The translations under genes were made by a program, and so were the position numbers. From positions 1 through 64,000 of the forward strand of contig NZ_BJOC01000019.1 in the NCBI RefSeq assembly GCF_006540005.1: a stretch of 64,000 nucleotides of DNA. The letters are read 5' to 3'. The first letter of the stretch is position 1. Each line of letters opens with the position of its first letter. The notes beneath the pieces are model-generated. The model saw only the letters and a list, made by a program, of their open reading frames with translations. It was not told the DNA's origin and searched no databases. This stretch comes from Halomonas halmophila (GTDB lineage: Bacteria > Pseudomonadota > Gammaproteobacteria > Pseudomonadales > Halomonadaceae). Of the stretch, positions 47,714 through 52,496 are shown piece after piece.

Positions 47714-49006
47714 ATGCGTGTCGTTATCATCGGCAGCGAACTGGCGGCCGCGACTGCCGCGGCAGCACTCGCCTGGGTGGGGCATGAGGTCACCTGGCGT
47801 CCTCATGCCTCCCTGGACTGGGCCCGTCTTGCGACCAGCGCCTGGCTGACCAGCGAGCCACAACTCGAGGCGCACCTCCAGGAGGGCCGTGACCAGGGCA
47901 GGCTGACGGTTCTTGATGCCGATCAGACGCCCGATCAGGCGGCCGCCTTCGATGTGGTCTGGCTGTCCCTGTCCCCGGAACAGCGGGCCGAAGCGGGTGA
48001 ACTGATCGCCGAGCACAGCCGCTGGCTGTCGGACACGGCCGTGCTGGTCAACAACTCGACCTTTCCGGTAGGCGAGACCGAGGCCCTGGCGTCACAGCTG
48101 GGCGCGGGTCGCAGTGCCGTGACGCTTGTCGACCTGCTGGAGGAGGGGCGCGCCTGGGACACATTTACGCGCCCCTCGCGCTGGCTGCTGGGCTGCGACG
48201 ATGATTACGCCGAGCAACGGGTCCGTGAACTGCTGCGTGCCTTCAATCGACGGCGCGAGGTCTTTCAGCGCATGCCCCGGCGTGCCGCCGAACTCAGTAA
48301 GCTGGCCATCAACGGCATGCTGGCGACGCGCATCAGCTACATGAACGAGATCGCCGGGCTGGCCGATACCCTGGGGGTGGATGTCGAGTATGTGCGTCAG
48401 GGCATGGGCGCCGATACGCGTATCGGCTATGAATATCTGTATCCCGGGTGCGGCTTCGGTGGCCCCAGCTTTTCCCGGGACCTCATGCGGCTGGCGGATG
48501 TGCAGTCGGCCAGTGGCCGACACTCGGCCCTGCTCGATCAGGTCCTGGACATCAACGAGCACAAGAAGGAAACGTTGTTCCGCAAGCTCTGGGCACATTA
48601 TCACGGCTGCCTGGAAGGCCGTACGGTGGCGATCTGGGGGGCAGCCTTCAAGCCGGGTACGGCGCGCATTGATCATGCCCCGGTGTTGACCCTGCTGCGG
48701 GCACTCTGGGCCCAGGGTGTGCATGTCAGGCTGCATGACCCGGCCGCCGTATCGGCGCTGCAGGAGCGACTGGGGGCCCATCCGTTATTGCGCTGTTTCG
48801 ACGCCGATCCATTCGAGGCCACCGAGGGCGCCGATGCCCTGATGCTGGTCACCGAATGGAAGGCCTACTGGAACCCGGACTGGCAACGCCTGGCCTCACA
48901 GCTCGACGGCCGCCTGCTGCTGGACGGGCGCAATATCTATGACCCCGACTATGTGGCGGCCATGGGGCTGCATTATCGCGGGATCGGTCGGCGTGCCGAC
49001 CCCTGA
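47714..49006 (+). CDS. UDP-glucose/GDP-mannose dehydrogenase-family protein lacking catalytic Cys
   Basis: A 430-residue member of the UDP-glucose dehydrogenase family in full length and order: N-terminal Rossmann domain, central helical domain (AELSKLAINGMLATRISYMNEIAG, K196 and N200 retained), and C-terminal UDP-binding domain (WGAAFKPGTARIDHAP). Two deviations are direct. The NAD loop, GxGYVG in active enzymes, reads G7-S-E-L-A-A. The active-site GGSCFPKD/GGYCLPKD reads GGPSFSRD, with Ser252 for Cys; a Cys lies at 246. Oxidation to UDP-glucuronate would need that Cys, so activity is doubtful. A regulatory or sugar-nucleotide-binding role is conceivable. It directly follows galU. Confidence 0.8.
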   Translation: MRVVIIGSELAAATAAAALAWVGHEVTWRPHASLDWARLATSAWLTSEPQLEAHLQEGRDQGRLTVLDADQTPDQAAAFDVVWLSLSPEQRAEAGELIAEHSRWLSDTAVLVNNSTFPVGETEALASQLGAGRSAVTLVDLLEEGRAWDTFTRPSRWLLGCDDDYAEQRVRELLRAFNRRREVFQRMPRRAAELSKLAINGMLATRISYMNEIAGLADTLGVDVEYVRQGMGADTRIGYEYLYPGCGFGGPSFSRDLMRLADVQSASGRHSALLDQVLDINEHKKETLFRKLWAHYHGCLEGRTVAIWGAAFKPGTARIDHAPVLTLLRALWAQGVHVRLHDPAAVSALQERLGAHPLLRCFDADPFEATEGADALMLVTEWKAYWNPDWQRLASQLDGRLLLDGRNIYDPDYVAAMGLHYRGIGRRADP

Positions 49007-49585
49007 TCAGCCGCCGGCATCGGCATGCTGGCGGGCAACGAAATCCCAGTTGATCACCTTCCACACCGCTTTCAGATAGGCCCGGTGGTCAGGCGTCTGT
49101 CGAGAATGAGCACCGGGCCCCGAGGCCTCGATCGCCAGCAGCGGGAAATGGTCACTGGCCAGGGGACATGGGCTATCGATAACGGTCAATTCACCGTTGA
49201 CGTCCTGAACCAGCCAGCTCCAGGCGGATGTCCGGTTATCGCGTGCAGCGGCCTTCATGGCGCGCTCGAACTGCGCGAATGAGCCGAAACCTGCCTCGAT
49301 GGCCCTGGCCATGGCGCCCGCGGGCTTGCCGCCGCGAGGAGCCAGACAATGCCAGTAGAAGGTCAGGCTCCATGCCTCGGCTGCCAGCGAGAAGGTCTCG
49401 CCGGATGTGCGCTGAAGCAAGTCCTCGAGAGACGCATCCGCCAATGGCGAGTCGGCCACCAGGGTGTTGAGACGCTCCAGGCAGTGCCGGTGGCGGCCGT
49501 CGTAGCGCTCACTGATCCAGTCGACCGACAGCTGGGGCTCCAGGGCATGTTTCTCGTAGGGCAGGGCAGGCGGTAGAAAGGCCAT
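49007..49585 (-). CDS. Fe/Mn superoxide dismutase-family protein lacking all metal ligands
   Basis: A 192-residue protein collinear with SodB (193): PALPYEKHALEP, LTFYWHCLAPRGG, GSFAQFERAMKAAA and the closing VNWDFVA are conserved. Against E. coli SodB (Met counted) the four metal ligands H27, H74, D157 and H161 correspond to R27, L74, E153 and P157, and Tyr35 of the second sphere is C35. It therefore cannot be a normal SOD. The reading frame is intact with GGGGAG before the ATG at 49585, so it is not an obvious pseudogene. It ends back to back with the Ugd-like gene. Function unknown. Confidence 0.85.
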   Translation of the reverse strand: MAFLPPALPYEKHALEPQLSVDWISERYDGRHRHCLERLNTLVADSPLADASLEDLLQRTSGETFSLAAEAWSLTFYWHCLAPRGGKPAGAMARAIEAGFGSFAQFERAMKAAARDNRTSAWSWLVQDVNGELTVIDSPCPLASDHFPLLAIEASGPGAHSRQTPDHRAYLKAVWKVINWDFVARQHADAGG

Positions 49586-49797
49586 GGAAGACTCCCCTGA
49601 GTCGCTGGGTGGCAGTTTGGGTCGGACGATATCGCCAGAGGATGGCATTGTATCGGCCTTGCCCGTTCGCTACGACGGTAAAAAACTTTACACTATTCAA
49701 CATGCTGTGACTGTTCGGTGGCGGCATCCTATCAAGCTGGCCCCTGATGCCTGGCTGTCGGCCCCCGAAACCCGTTTCATCGCCCAAGGAGATCATC

Positions 49798-50607
49798 ATG
49801 GCAGAGCGCCCGGAAGACAGCCGGTACCAACGACCGATCGTACCGGACCCGGATGCCAGCCTGGCGGGCCACCGTCCCGCCAGCGCCCCCAGGGTGCGTC
49901 TCTGGCCGCTGTGGTGCCTGACGCTGTTGCTGTTGATCATGCTGACGGGGCTGGCCGTTGCGGGCTGGTGGTATCATCAGGATGTCCAGCAACGCCTGAC
50001 ACAATTGCAGGGCGAGCTTTCCAATGTGCATGCCCGCTTCGATGCCGAGCAGGGGCGTGGCGAGGCCCTGGACTCCCTGCAACAACGGGTCGCGGACGTC
50101 GAGGACGACCAGGCCGCGGTGGGCCAGCGTATCGAACAGCGCCTCTCCGAATGGGCAGAGCAACGCCTCGTGCCCGTGGCAGAAGGCCTCGACGAGGCCT
50201 CCCGCAATCTGGCCCGTCTCGAAAAGGAGGCCGAGGTGCGCGACAAGACGTTGTCGGCCGTTCGCAGTTCGCTGGATGCGCTGGAGCAGGCCGGTGAAGA
50301 GAGCCGCGCCGCCCTCGAGGAGCGTCTCGTGAGTCTCGAGAACACCCTGGAAGCGAACGAGTCTCGGCTGTCGGAGTCCAAAGCGCGCGTCCAATCTCGC
50401 CTTGCGTCGATCAGCGATGACCTGGAAGCCACTCAGGAGCGTCTGTCGGGCATGCAGGACGACATTGCAGCCCATGACAGTTCGCGAGAAGATACCAAGT
50501 CTCAGGTCGAAGACTTGTCTTCGCGCCTGAATGAAATGCAGACGGAGCTGCGAGACCTGCGTCAGGCGCAACTGGCGTTGAGCGCTCAGCTGGAATCCTT
50601 GCGCTAG
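49798..50607 (+). CDS. Membrane-anchored coiled-coil protein of unknown function
   Basis: A 269-residue protein: a hydrophilic Pro-rich N-terminus (about 34 residues), one transmembrane helix (WPLWCLTLLLLIMLTGLAVAGWW, about 35-57), then a predominantly heptad-patterned, Glu/Arg/Leu-rich region to the end (for example LDSLQQRVADVEDDQAAV and ESRLSESKARVQSRLASI). Topology is probably N-in with the coiled coil in the periplasm. No enzyme motif is seen. AAGGAG precedes the ATG at 49798. tamA starts 32 bp downstream on the same strand, so a structural role in the envelope, perhaps linked to TamAB, is a hypothesis. Confidence 0.8.
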   Translation: MAERPEDSRYQRPIVPDPDASLAGHRPASAPRVRLWPLWCLTLLLLIMLTGLAVAGWWYHQDVQQRLTQLQGELSNVHARFDAEQGRGEALDSLQQRVADVEDDQAAVGQRIEQRLSEWAEQRLVPVAEGLDEASRNLARLEKEAEVRDKTLSAVRSSLDALEQAGEESRAALEERLVSLENTLEANESRLSESKARVQSRLASISDDLEATQERLSGMQDDIAAHDSSREDTKSQVEDLSSRLNEMQTELRDLRQAQLALSAQLESLR

Positions 50608-50639: not shown

Positions 50640-52496
50640 ATGGATAATCGTCAGTTCATGCGCCTGGGCAGCGGAGCACTGTGTCTGGTCGCGGCCATGC
50701 CAAGCTTGGCACTGGATGCCTCGATCAGCGGTGTGGAAGACGAGCTTGCCAGCAACATCGAGGTCTATCTCGATGGACTCGATGCCTCTCAATATCAGGC
50801 CGAACGCCTGGAAGAGGAGGTGCGTCGCCTGGTCGGCGAGGCCCTGCGCCCTTTCGGCTACTATGAACCCGACATGACCCTGAGCTTCGATGACCCGGCA
50901 TCTCCTTCCCATGTCAGCCTGGACGTCGACAAGGGAAAGCCGGTGCGCATCGAACGCCTCGATTTCGTGCTGGAGGGAGCCGCCGCCGAGGACCCGCTGT
51001 TCACCGACGCCATCGAGGCCTATCCCCAGGAGAAAGGCGATATCCTGCGCCATGCCCCTTATGACAGCCTGCGCAGCAAGCTCTCGGGGCTGGCGATGCA
51101 GCGTGGCTACTTCGACTGGGGGTTCCGCCAGAGACGCCTGGAAGTGCGTCCCTGGGCACATAGTGCCTACTTGTCGCTGGGCCTCGACAGTGGGCCTCGC
51201 TACCATTTCGGCGAGGTCCATTTCAGCGGTCAGCACATCGAATCCGAGCGGCTGAGAAATCTGGTGCCCTTCGAACCGGGTAGCCCGTATCTCGCCGGGC
51301 AGGTGGCCCGCTTGAATCAGAATCTGGGCCAGACTCAGTGGTTCGGCTCCGTCAGTGTTCGACCGCGCCTGGATGCCGGTCCCGAGACCCTCGCCATCCA
51401 GGATACGGGGCCCGGCTGGTGGTATGCGCTGGATGTGGAAGGCATCCCTGAACCAACGGCGCAACCCGCCATCCTCGATGCCCGGGCACTCGGCGCCGCC
51501 GGGGCACTCACTGAACCCGAGGTCCCTCGGGTACCGATCGATGTGCAGCTCACACCGGCAGACCGCCACCAGTTCGAGACCGGTATTGGCTTTTCCACCG
51601 ACGTTGGACCACGAGCTCGCCTTACCTGGAATCAACCCTGGGTCAATCGTTATGGCCACAGCTGGAATCACGATCTGTATATTTCCAGTCCCGAGCAGAA
51701 GTTCACCGGCGTCTACTCCATGCCGCTCGAAGACCCCTTGAATGACAGCTATGAGCTGCAATACGGCCTGCGCAACAAGGACCAGGATGACACCCAGTCC
51801 ACGGAAGCCAGTGTCGAATTCGGGCGTCGATGGAAGTTCGAGAACGGCTGGGAGCAGTACCTCTATGTCCGCTCGACCTTTGAAGACTTCACCCAGGCGG
51901 GCGTCTCCAATCAAGTATTGCTGGTGTACCCCGGAGTACAGTGGTCGCGTACCCGCACCCGCAACCCGACCTTTCCAACCTGGGGCGATCGGCAGCAATT
52001 GACGGTACAGTATGCCAATCAGGCCTGGGGCTCGGAAGCCGACTTCCTTCGCGTCAATGCCGACACCCATTGGATCCGCATGCTCGGCGACAGTAATCGT
52101 TTCGTGGGGCGGCTTGGCATGGGCAGTGTCACCACCGATGACTTCGACGATATTCCCCCGTCATTGCGCTTTTTCGCCGGCGGTGACAACAGCGTGCGCG
52201 GCTATTCCTACGAGAGCCTGGCACCCAGGGACGACGAGGGCCGCCTGGAGGGCGGCGCACAACGTTTCGTGGCGAGCGTCGAAGCACAGCGCAAGATTGC
52301 CGACAAGTGGTGGCTGGCCACTTTCGTGGACGCCGGGGACGCCTTTTCCGACTGGTGGCCGGATCAATTGAATACCGGTGCCGGTCTAGGCATCAGGTGG
52401 ATCTCGCCGGTCGGGCCGATTCGTTTCGATGTCGCCCATCCCTTCGATCACGATGACAGCTTTCGCATCCACTTTTCCATCGGACCGGAATTCTGA
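50640..52496 (+). CDS. tamA: Translocation and assembly module subunit TamA
   Basis: A 618-residue Omp85-superfamily outer-membrane protein (E. coli TamA: 577). A signal peptide ends near residue 25 (PSLALDA). POTRA domains cover about 27-270 (ISGVEDELASNIEVYL; GYYEPDMTLSFDD; FGEVHFSGQHIESERL), and the barrel follows with the conserved RFFAGGDNSVRGYSYESL loop near residue 520 and a C-terminal Phe. With TamB it moves autotransporters and phospholipids to the outer membrane. The ATG closely follows a weak AGGAAAT-like site. tamB starts 11 bp downstream. Confidence 0.95.
   Translation: MDNRQFMRLGSGALCLVAAMPSLALDASISGVEDELASNIEVYLDGLDASQYQAERLEEEVRRLVGEALRPFGYYEPDMTLSFDDPASPSHVSLDVDKGKPVRIERLDFVLEGAAAEDPLFTDAIEAYPQEKGDILRHAPYDSLRSKLSGLAMQRGYFDWGFRQRRLEVRPWAHSAYLSLGLDSGPRYHFGEVHFSGQHIESERLRNLVPFEPGSPYLAGQVARLNQNLGQTQWFGSVSVRPRLDAGPETLAIQDTGPGWWYALDVEGIPEPTAQPAILDARALGAAGALTEPEVPRVPIDVQLTPADRHQFETGIGFSTDVGPRARLTWNQPWVNRYGHSWNHDLYISSPEQKFTGVYSMPLEDPLNDSYELQYGLRNKDQDDTQSTEASVEFGRRWKFENGWEQYLYVRSTFEDFTQAGVSNQVLLVYPGVQWSRTRTRNPTFPTWGDRQQLTVQYANQAWGSEADFLRVNADTHWIRMLGDSNRFVGRLGMGSVTTDDFDDIPPSLRFFAGGDNSVRGYSYESLAPRDDEGRLEGGAQRFVASVEAQRKIADKWWLATFVDAGDAFSDWWPDQLNTGAGLGIRWISPVGPIRFDVAHPFDHDDSFRIHFSIGPEF

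Follow-up and report, generated by a model that had tools for sequence, protein, structure and literature searches.

We report that a SodB-type gene of Halomonas halmophila, here called SODL, encodes a full-length homologue of the iron superoxide dismutases (SODs) in which all four metal ligands are replaced, and we propose, with slightly better than even confidence, that it is a SodB which was converted in place to a pseudoenzyme and kept for a role that needs no metal and probably consists in binding a partner. The gene was found in a stretch of 64,000 nucleotides (positions 1 to 64,000 of contig NZ_BJOC01000019.1, hereafter the window). Its ligands are lost, it occupies a slot common to the canonical sodB of relatives, it is under purifying selection, and another SOD is present in the same genome.

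The iron-type Fe/Mn SODs, such as E. coli SodB (PF00081 and PF02777; SodFM2 in excerpts of PMC10172142 and of PMC13008324, the latter on the metal preference of Fe/Mn SODs), have the same fold and length as SODL. Their four ligands are called universally conserved in excerpts of PMC10172142, a survey of 3,058 genomes. In MnSOD the outer-sphere Tyr and Gln matter for catalysis, which is disturbed by their mutation, and a Glu of the opposite subunit holds a ligand His in the dimer (both from excerpts of PMC5836015), and a His-Tyr pair is another of the usual SOD dimer contacts (PMC8278866, excerpt).

SODL, its metal site and its predicted fold

The features of the window used below are as follows.

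47714..49006, plus strand: ugd-like gene for a UDP-sugar dehydrogenase, convergent with SODL, marker of one edge of the sodB slot
49007..49585, minus strand: SODL, SodB-type gene of 192 amino acids, four metal ligands all replaced
49591..49598, minus strand: probable ribosome binding site of SODL, AGGGGAGT, purine-rich, 5 bases upstream of the ATG
49680..49709, no strand assigned: conserved intergenic block AAAAAACTTTACACTATTCAACATGCTG, common in alignment to the relative G033 and to four others whose sodB is canonical or eroded
49798..50607, plus strand: gene for a coiled-coil protein that has a hydrophobic N-terminal stretch, divergent from SODL
50640..52496, plus strand: tamA, second marker of the sodB slot

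SODL is read on the minus strand (49585..49007) from an ATG to a single terminal stop, and the plus-strand frame over 49007..49585 contains stops. At 49004-49009 the stop codon of ugd directly adjoins that of SODL, with zero bases between them, whereas the spacing of ugd and sodB in relatives is usually a few dozen bases or more. The intergenic block is perhaps, as a guess, the promoter of the divergent coiled-coil and tamAB genes; a consensus promoter and terminator scan of 48900-49900 gave one weak match within ugd and no terminator, and did not report the block. The coiled-coil protein gives nothing beyond weak coiled-coil matches against Pfam and NCBIfam and is possibly a partner of the TAM system; its gene adjoins tamA-tamB in most family genomes examined, even where sodB is gone.

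Both Fe/Mn-SOD domains are matched by SODL above their gathering scores (Sod_Fe_N, PF00081, 8.4e-9, 36.2 bits, cut-off 27; Sod_Fe_C, PF02777, 6.7e-15, 55.4 bits, cut-off 20.9), which places it in the fold family, and its score of 144.9 bits against the NCBIfam superoxide dismutase [Fe] equivalog NF007832 is under the curated cut-off of 348. The best solved relative is E. coli SodB (1e-39), which aligns over residues 3-186. AlphaFold, supplied with a four-row alignment, returned five models with pLDDT from 87.7 down to 53.6, and the first of these (mean pLDDT 87.7, pTM 0.86) was superimposed by Foldseek on E. coli SodB 1isa with a TM of 0.90 and 38% identity by structure alignment, so that SODL is predicted to keep the SOD fold. 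The second structure match is the Q69E variant of E. coli SodB, the altered site of which is the Gln70 position in the numbering used here. The sole segment of at least three residues with pLDDT below 50 is 157-164.

Residues were called from an alignment of SODL to E. coli SodB and relatives, with codon coordinates counted from the start of the ORF.

49505..49507, minus strand: codon 27, ligand His27 of E. coli SodB to Arg
49481..49483, minus strand: codon 35, gateway Tyr to Cys
49376..49378, minus strand: codon 70, Gln to Glu
49364..49366, minus strand: codon 74, ligand His74 to Leu
49127..49129, minus strand: codon 153, ligand Asp157 to Glu
49115..49117, minus strand: codon 157, ligand His161 to Pro, first residue of the low-confidence loop 157-164 of the AlphaFold model

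Where an active Fe/Mn SOD has three His and one Asp, SODL has R, L, E and P, and where it has the second-sphere Tyr and Gln, SODL has Cys35 and Glu70; the changes beyond those listed in the original prediction are, in E. coli numbers, H31R, Q70E, W159S, E160G and Y164H. On these residues SODL would be without dismutase activity. The original prediction, made from the sequence alone and naming no strand, had described the same four replacements (H27/H74/D157/H161 to R27/L74/E153/P157) and the change of Tyr35 to Cys, in a full-length SodB-like protein of 192 residues with an undisrupted frame and a good ribosome binding site. Each of these points is borne out by the alignment, the single terminal stop and the purine-rich motif upstream, and the Pfam alignment and fold modelling that it had proposed as checks gave the matches described above. 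A chance ORF or an assembly error is ruled out by the full-length homology, the common gene order and the relatives with comparable losses and intact frames.

Loss of the site across the family

Of 275 family genomes searched, 271 gave a match, and one SodB-type gene was extracted from each of 148; many genomes of genus g23 beyond the 148 have only a MnSOD-like match. We called a gene canonical if it has the ligands His, His, Asp and His (HHDH) with Tyr35 and W159-E160, eroded if it has HHDH otherwise, and ligand-less if at least one ligand is lost. On this basis there are 96 canonical genes, 16 eroded genes, which keep the ligands and have lost Tyr35, and 36 ligand-less genes, and in genus g20 all 18 of 18 species are ligand-less. 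Tyr35 is gone from every ligand-less and every eroded gene (36/36 and 16/16), with no case among the 148 of ligand loss with Tyr35 retained, which suggests an order in which Tyr35 is lost first and the ligands later. The eroded SodBs, for example L034, L037, L038 and L041, have Tyr35 changed in 16 of 16 and Gln70 changed to Glu in 8 of 16; from their residues these proteins may be metal-bound with altered redox behaviour. The SodB of G169 (L043) keeps the ligands and Tyr35, yet carries H31Q and Q70E, a different first step of change.

Among the 36 ligand-less genes, 34 have Leu, Met or Phe at position 74 and two have His, and at position 27 there are 21 with Leu, 14 with Arg and one with His. 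These residues, a pattern that we noticed post hoc, look as if they fill an emptied metal pocket. Within g20 conservation is 0.71 in helix 1 and 0.70 in the old ligand loop, as against 0.58 for the whole protein, and new residues, among them R21, A22, L26, L27, S29 and R164, are fixed in at least 17 of the 18 species. Conservation in the clade G078-G106 is lowest in the old ligand loop (0.23), and since this loop is also of low confidence in the SODL model, the ligand-less clades may not share one function or mechanism. The old ligand loop is shortened in L053 and L056 (G069 and G081), which also have a short acidic insert before the first strand of the C-terminal domain. G033 has R31, C35, E70, L74 and a Glu at the Asp157 position in common with SODL, so by these shared residues the ancestor of G033 and the window genome (G000) was probably already without the metal site.

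It could be argued that SODL is still a metalloprotein, with a new metal site or a new chemistry in the old pocket built from residues such as Cys35, Glu70 and Glu153. Indeed Cys35 and Glu70 occur often among the ligand-less genes (in 13 and 20 of the 36) and are already seen in eroded genes, where all ligands are kept (3 and 8 of 16). However, by inspection there is no set of ligand-type residues common to the clades, and position 27 is occupied mostly by Leu or Arg and position 74 by Leu, and we consider a surviving metal chemistry very improbable on the sequences.

The sodB slot

The order of genes is ubiG, galU and ugd, followed by SODL in the opposite direction and then by the coiled-coil gene, tamA and tamB, and it is common to the canonical sodB of relatives. 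In 53 of 62 loci ugd, the SOD and tamA are found together, and of the other nine one is at a contig end, one has extra DNA between and seven are without the neighbourhood. In the full set of 148, 68 of the 96 canonical genes have a slot neighbour, as do all 16 eroded and 35 of the 36 ligand-less genes, which leaves 28 canonical genes and the ligand-less gene of G211 outside the slot. Canonical sodB genes outside the usual slot include L142, L145, L146 and L152.

The slot can also be empty. A look-up in 12 genomes showed no SOD within the stretch from ugd through the coiled-coil gene to tamA in any of the eight g23 genomes checked; G128 of genus g10 was also without a SOD, and the remaining three were without the neighbourhood. 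In G034, G091, G093, G099 and G211 ugd is likewise followed by the coiled-coil gene and then tamA, and the slot contains no SOD. In genus g1, 60 near-complete genomes have a canonical SodB, which is in the slot in 36 and elsewhere in 24, and all four checked of these 24 have an empty slot. The slot gene can therefore be lost, which makes its retention elsewhere meaningful, yet deletion is also the natural end of decay.

Judged by gene order, SODL is the sodB of its slot changed in place and not an extra copy; neither this nor the intermediate states in relatives were visible to the original prediction. An origin of SODL as an extra copy by duplication is disfavoured, as it sits in the sodB slot and as the genome's second SOD is a distant protein of MnSOD type (26% identity). 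Synonymous divergence gives no support to a recent replacement of in-slot canonical sodB by horizontal transfer, its median over 110 cross-genus pairs from 17 canonical in-slot genomes being 1.99 for sodB and 1.82 for ugd, both near saturation.

The second SOD

The genome of the window, which is 99.98% complete, encodes one other Fe/Mn SOD, the MnSOD-type protein just mentioned, which has HHDH ligands, and no match to PF00080 for a Cu/Zn SOD was found in it. Presumably it is this canonical MnSOD, encoded elsewhere in the genome, that removes superoxide. Counted as matches, a second SOD is found in 52 of 52 non-canonical genomes and in 79 of 96 canonical genomes, the 17 single-match genomes being all canonical. 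Second sequences were read in 44 genomes, including 40 of the 52 non-canonical ones (32 ligand-less, 8 eroded and 1 canonical genomes, and 3 without an extracted SodB-type gene), and 44 of 44 are HHDH. A link between catalytic loss and a second SOD gives a Fisher p of 6e-4, but with one to two informative independent pairs it is not established.

The two SODs of Halomonas elongata are described in excerpts of PMC9006882 as showing no regulation by salt. In the window genome a Fur-box-like sequence, AATATTGATAATCATTTTG, lies about 108 bases before the MnSOD gene (L004, G000:C10) and has 4 mismatches to the consensus. Before the other 43 second SODs a Fur-like box has at least 5 mismatches each, and there is no general rule. 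If the site is a true one, the sole SOD that by sequence is left to the window genome would be tied to iron supply.

Yeast mitoribosomal mS42 and mS43 are SOD-like proteins in a structural role. They form a heterodimer (excerpts of PMC8998825), and by analogy SODL could be a heterodimer partner or decoy for MnSOD, tuning or stabilising the active enzyme, as would suit the second SOD match in every non-canonical genome and the HHDH ligands of all those read. However, the two contacts described for SOD dimers, from Glu to ligand His (PMC5836015, excerpt) and between His and Tyr (in part of PMC8278866), are both replaced in SODL, and most canonical-SodB genomes (79/96) have a second SOD too. The heterodimer partner of a real SOD, which the original prediction had put forward as one possible role, is thus left without its usual contact residues E160, H161, H31 and Y164, and we think such a pairing unlikely.

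How many losses

A quick tree built on five flank proteins of 54 genomes, in which seven forks are open, requires five changes for the ligand-less state, namely in g20, in the window genome with G033, in G069 with G070, in the clade G078-G106 and in G112. For the same genomes (53 rows) the gene tree of SodB itself requires two such changes, with 24 of 25 ligand-less genes joined (support 93, not starred), and when 58 columns around the metal site are taken out it requires two or three. The gene-tree grouping weakens the claim of five separate losses, although fast long branches, of which the tree program warns, could explain it. By the SodB gene tree, a grouping of the window pair with its flank-tree sisters is not rejected (p 0.146, 0.292, 0.071), whereas that of G069 and G070 with theirs is rejected (p 0.002; 0.023 without the site). 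As synonymous divergence gives in-slot canonical sodB about the same age as ugd, we favour vertical descent with several losses, of which two is a safe minimum.

Should the losses be independent, which is what the flank genes indicate, the simplest form of our proposal would be that SodB in this family has an older, metal-independent second role, the age of which we infer. Specifically, Halomonadaceae SodB may have had a metal-independent job before catalytic loss, several lineages may have shed the site once MnSOD covered dismutation, and helix 1 and the old ligand loop of g20 may be a re-tooled interface. We put this fuller account forward tentatively, as something well short of an even chance.

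Selection and retention

We estimated dN/dS by pairwise codon likelihood with our own script and left out pairs with dS over about 2, among them G000-G048, G033-G048, G069-G070, G060-G064, G078-G103 and the gph of G000-G033; NG86 medians mix deep pairs. Between SODL and its G033 counterpart dN/dS is 0.249 (dS 1.92; 2dlnL 32.8 versus dN/dS = 1), a rough value from a distant single sister, and the flanking genes of the same pair have 0.060 (ugd), 0.031 (galU), 0.078 (tamA) and 0.046 (ubiG). Three canonical pairs gave 0.061-0.090, three eroded pairs 0.095-0.205, seven g20 pairs 0.097-0.224 and five usable pairs from other ligand-less clades 0.098-0.409. Ligand-less genes are under purifying selection, which is clear but about three times weaker than that on canonical sodB.

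The frames agree in this respect. Full-length frames are found in 35 of 36 ligand-less genes, the exception being the truncated gene of G095, a 76%-complete draft. By comparison, when neutral point mutation was simulated (600 runs each), 13-17% of frames were still open after 0.1 changes per site, about 2% after 0.25 and 0-0.3% after 0.5. All 81 g1 genomes with a completeness of 90% or more have a SodB-type gene (60 canonical, 6 eroded, 15 ligand-less), and 21 of the 81 have only a non-canonical SodB, in the slot in all 21. A pseudogene would have a broken frame or a dN/dS of about 1, and the original prediction had named a value near 1 as the sign of decay; SODL has an intact frame and a dN/dS of 0.249, and a simple pseudogene is disfavoured by the dN/dS values, the 35 full-length frames and the neutral simulation.

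The main rival to our proposal is a more gradual form of decay, in which MnSOD makes sodB unneeded and the gene is a redundant relic on a slow path to deletion, with a residual constraint, for example against harmful misfolding, holding dN/dS below 1. This would be consistent with the coexistence in the family of canonical, eroded, ligand-less, truncated (G095) and absent states, with the raised dN/dS, with the empty slot in all eight g23 and all four g1 genomes checked, the latter with sodB elsewhere, and with the higher frequency of a second SOD match in non-canonical genomes. However, dN/dS is clearly below 1 also inside g20, where every species is ligand-less, the number of full-length frames goes against the neutral expectation, new residues have become fixed in g20, and the second-SOD link is not significant after kinship is considered. 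We regard a slowly decaying relic as possible but less likely.

A pseudoenzyme is a homologue of an enzyme that is without the catalytic residues, is kept by selection and has a non-catalytic role. SODL has the first two properties, the second by a dN/dS taken from one distant sister at dS 1.92, and would have the third under our proposal. Of the originally predicted pseudoenzyme with a new role, the pseudoenzyme part stands on the sequences, with four ligands gone and selection acting, and the new role is a fair supposition.

Discussion

We hypothesise that SODL is the sodB of its slot turned in place to a metal-free pseudoenzyme, and that superoxide removal would have been handed over to the second, canonical MnSOD. 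Lineages on this path would lose Tyr35 from SodB, often with Gln70, and then the ligands, while the fold is kept. SODL would be kept for a task which needs the SOD fold without the metal, most likely the binding of a partner as a scaffold or regulatory subunit.

Several known systems bear comparison with SODL. The iron-type SODs are the nearest, as their sodB slot is common to the relatives of SODL and the orthologues in close relatives are canonical by sequence. The Cu/Zn SOD fold is unrelated to the Fe/Mn SOD fold. Nevertheless, the Cu/Zn pseudodismutases of leporipoxviruses are described in excerpts of PMC10211241 as inert SOD homologues kept for protein binding, although these, unlike SODL, are viral and of the Cu/Zn kind. 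In plants PAP9/FSD2 and PAP4/FSD3 of the plastid RNA polymerase are SOD-fold proteins within a larger complex and match the SODL model in fold, but PAP9 retains its four ligands and binds metal (excerpts of PMC8278866). The mS42/mS43 heterodimer is bound to the 3' end of the small-subunit rRNA (PMC9892005, in part) and is eukaryotic and ribosomal, and SODL is not known to be part of such a complex. In open-access literature on pseudo-SODs and Halomonas SODs we found no report of a ligand-less bacterial SodB.

Fe/Mn-SOD ligands that are described as universally conserved (excerpts of PMC10172142) are thus lost in 36 of 148 SodB-type genes of this family, and in 35 of the 36 at the native locus. 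As SODL is above both Pfam cut-offs, genes of this kind could be taken for functional SODs in automatic annotation. The canonical, half-eroded, ligand-less and deleted states in relatives amount to a natural experiment in the passage from enzyme to pseudoenzyme, and this series makes an overlooked non-catalytic role of SodB testable in the family.
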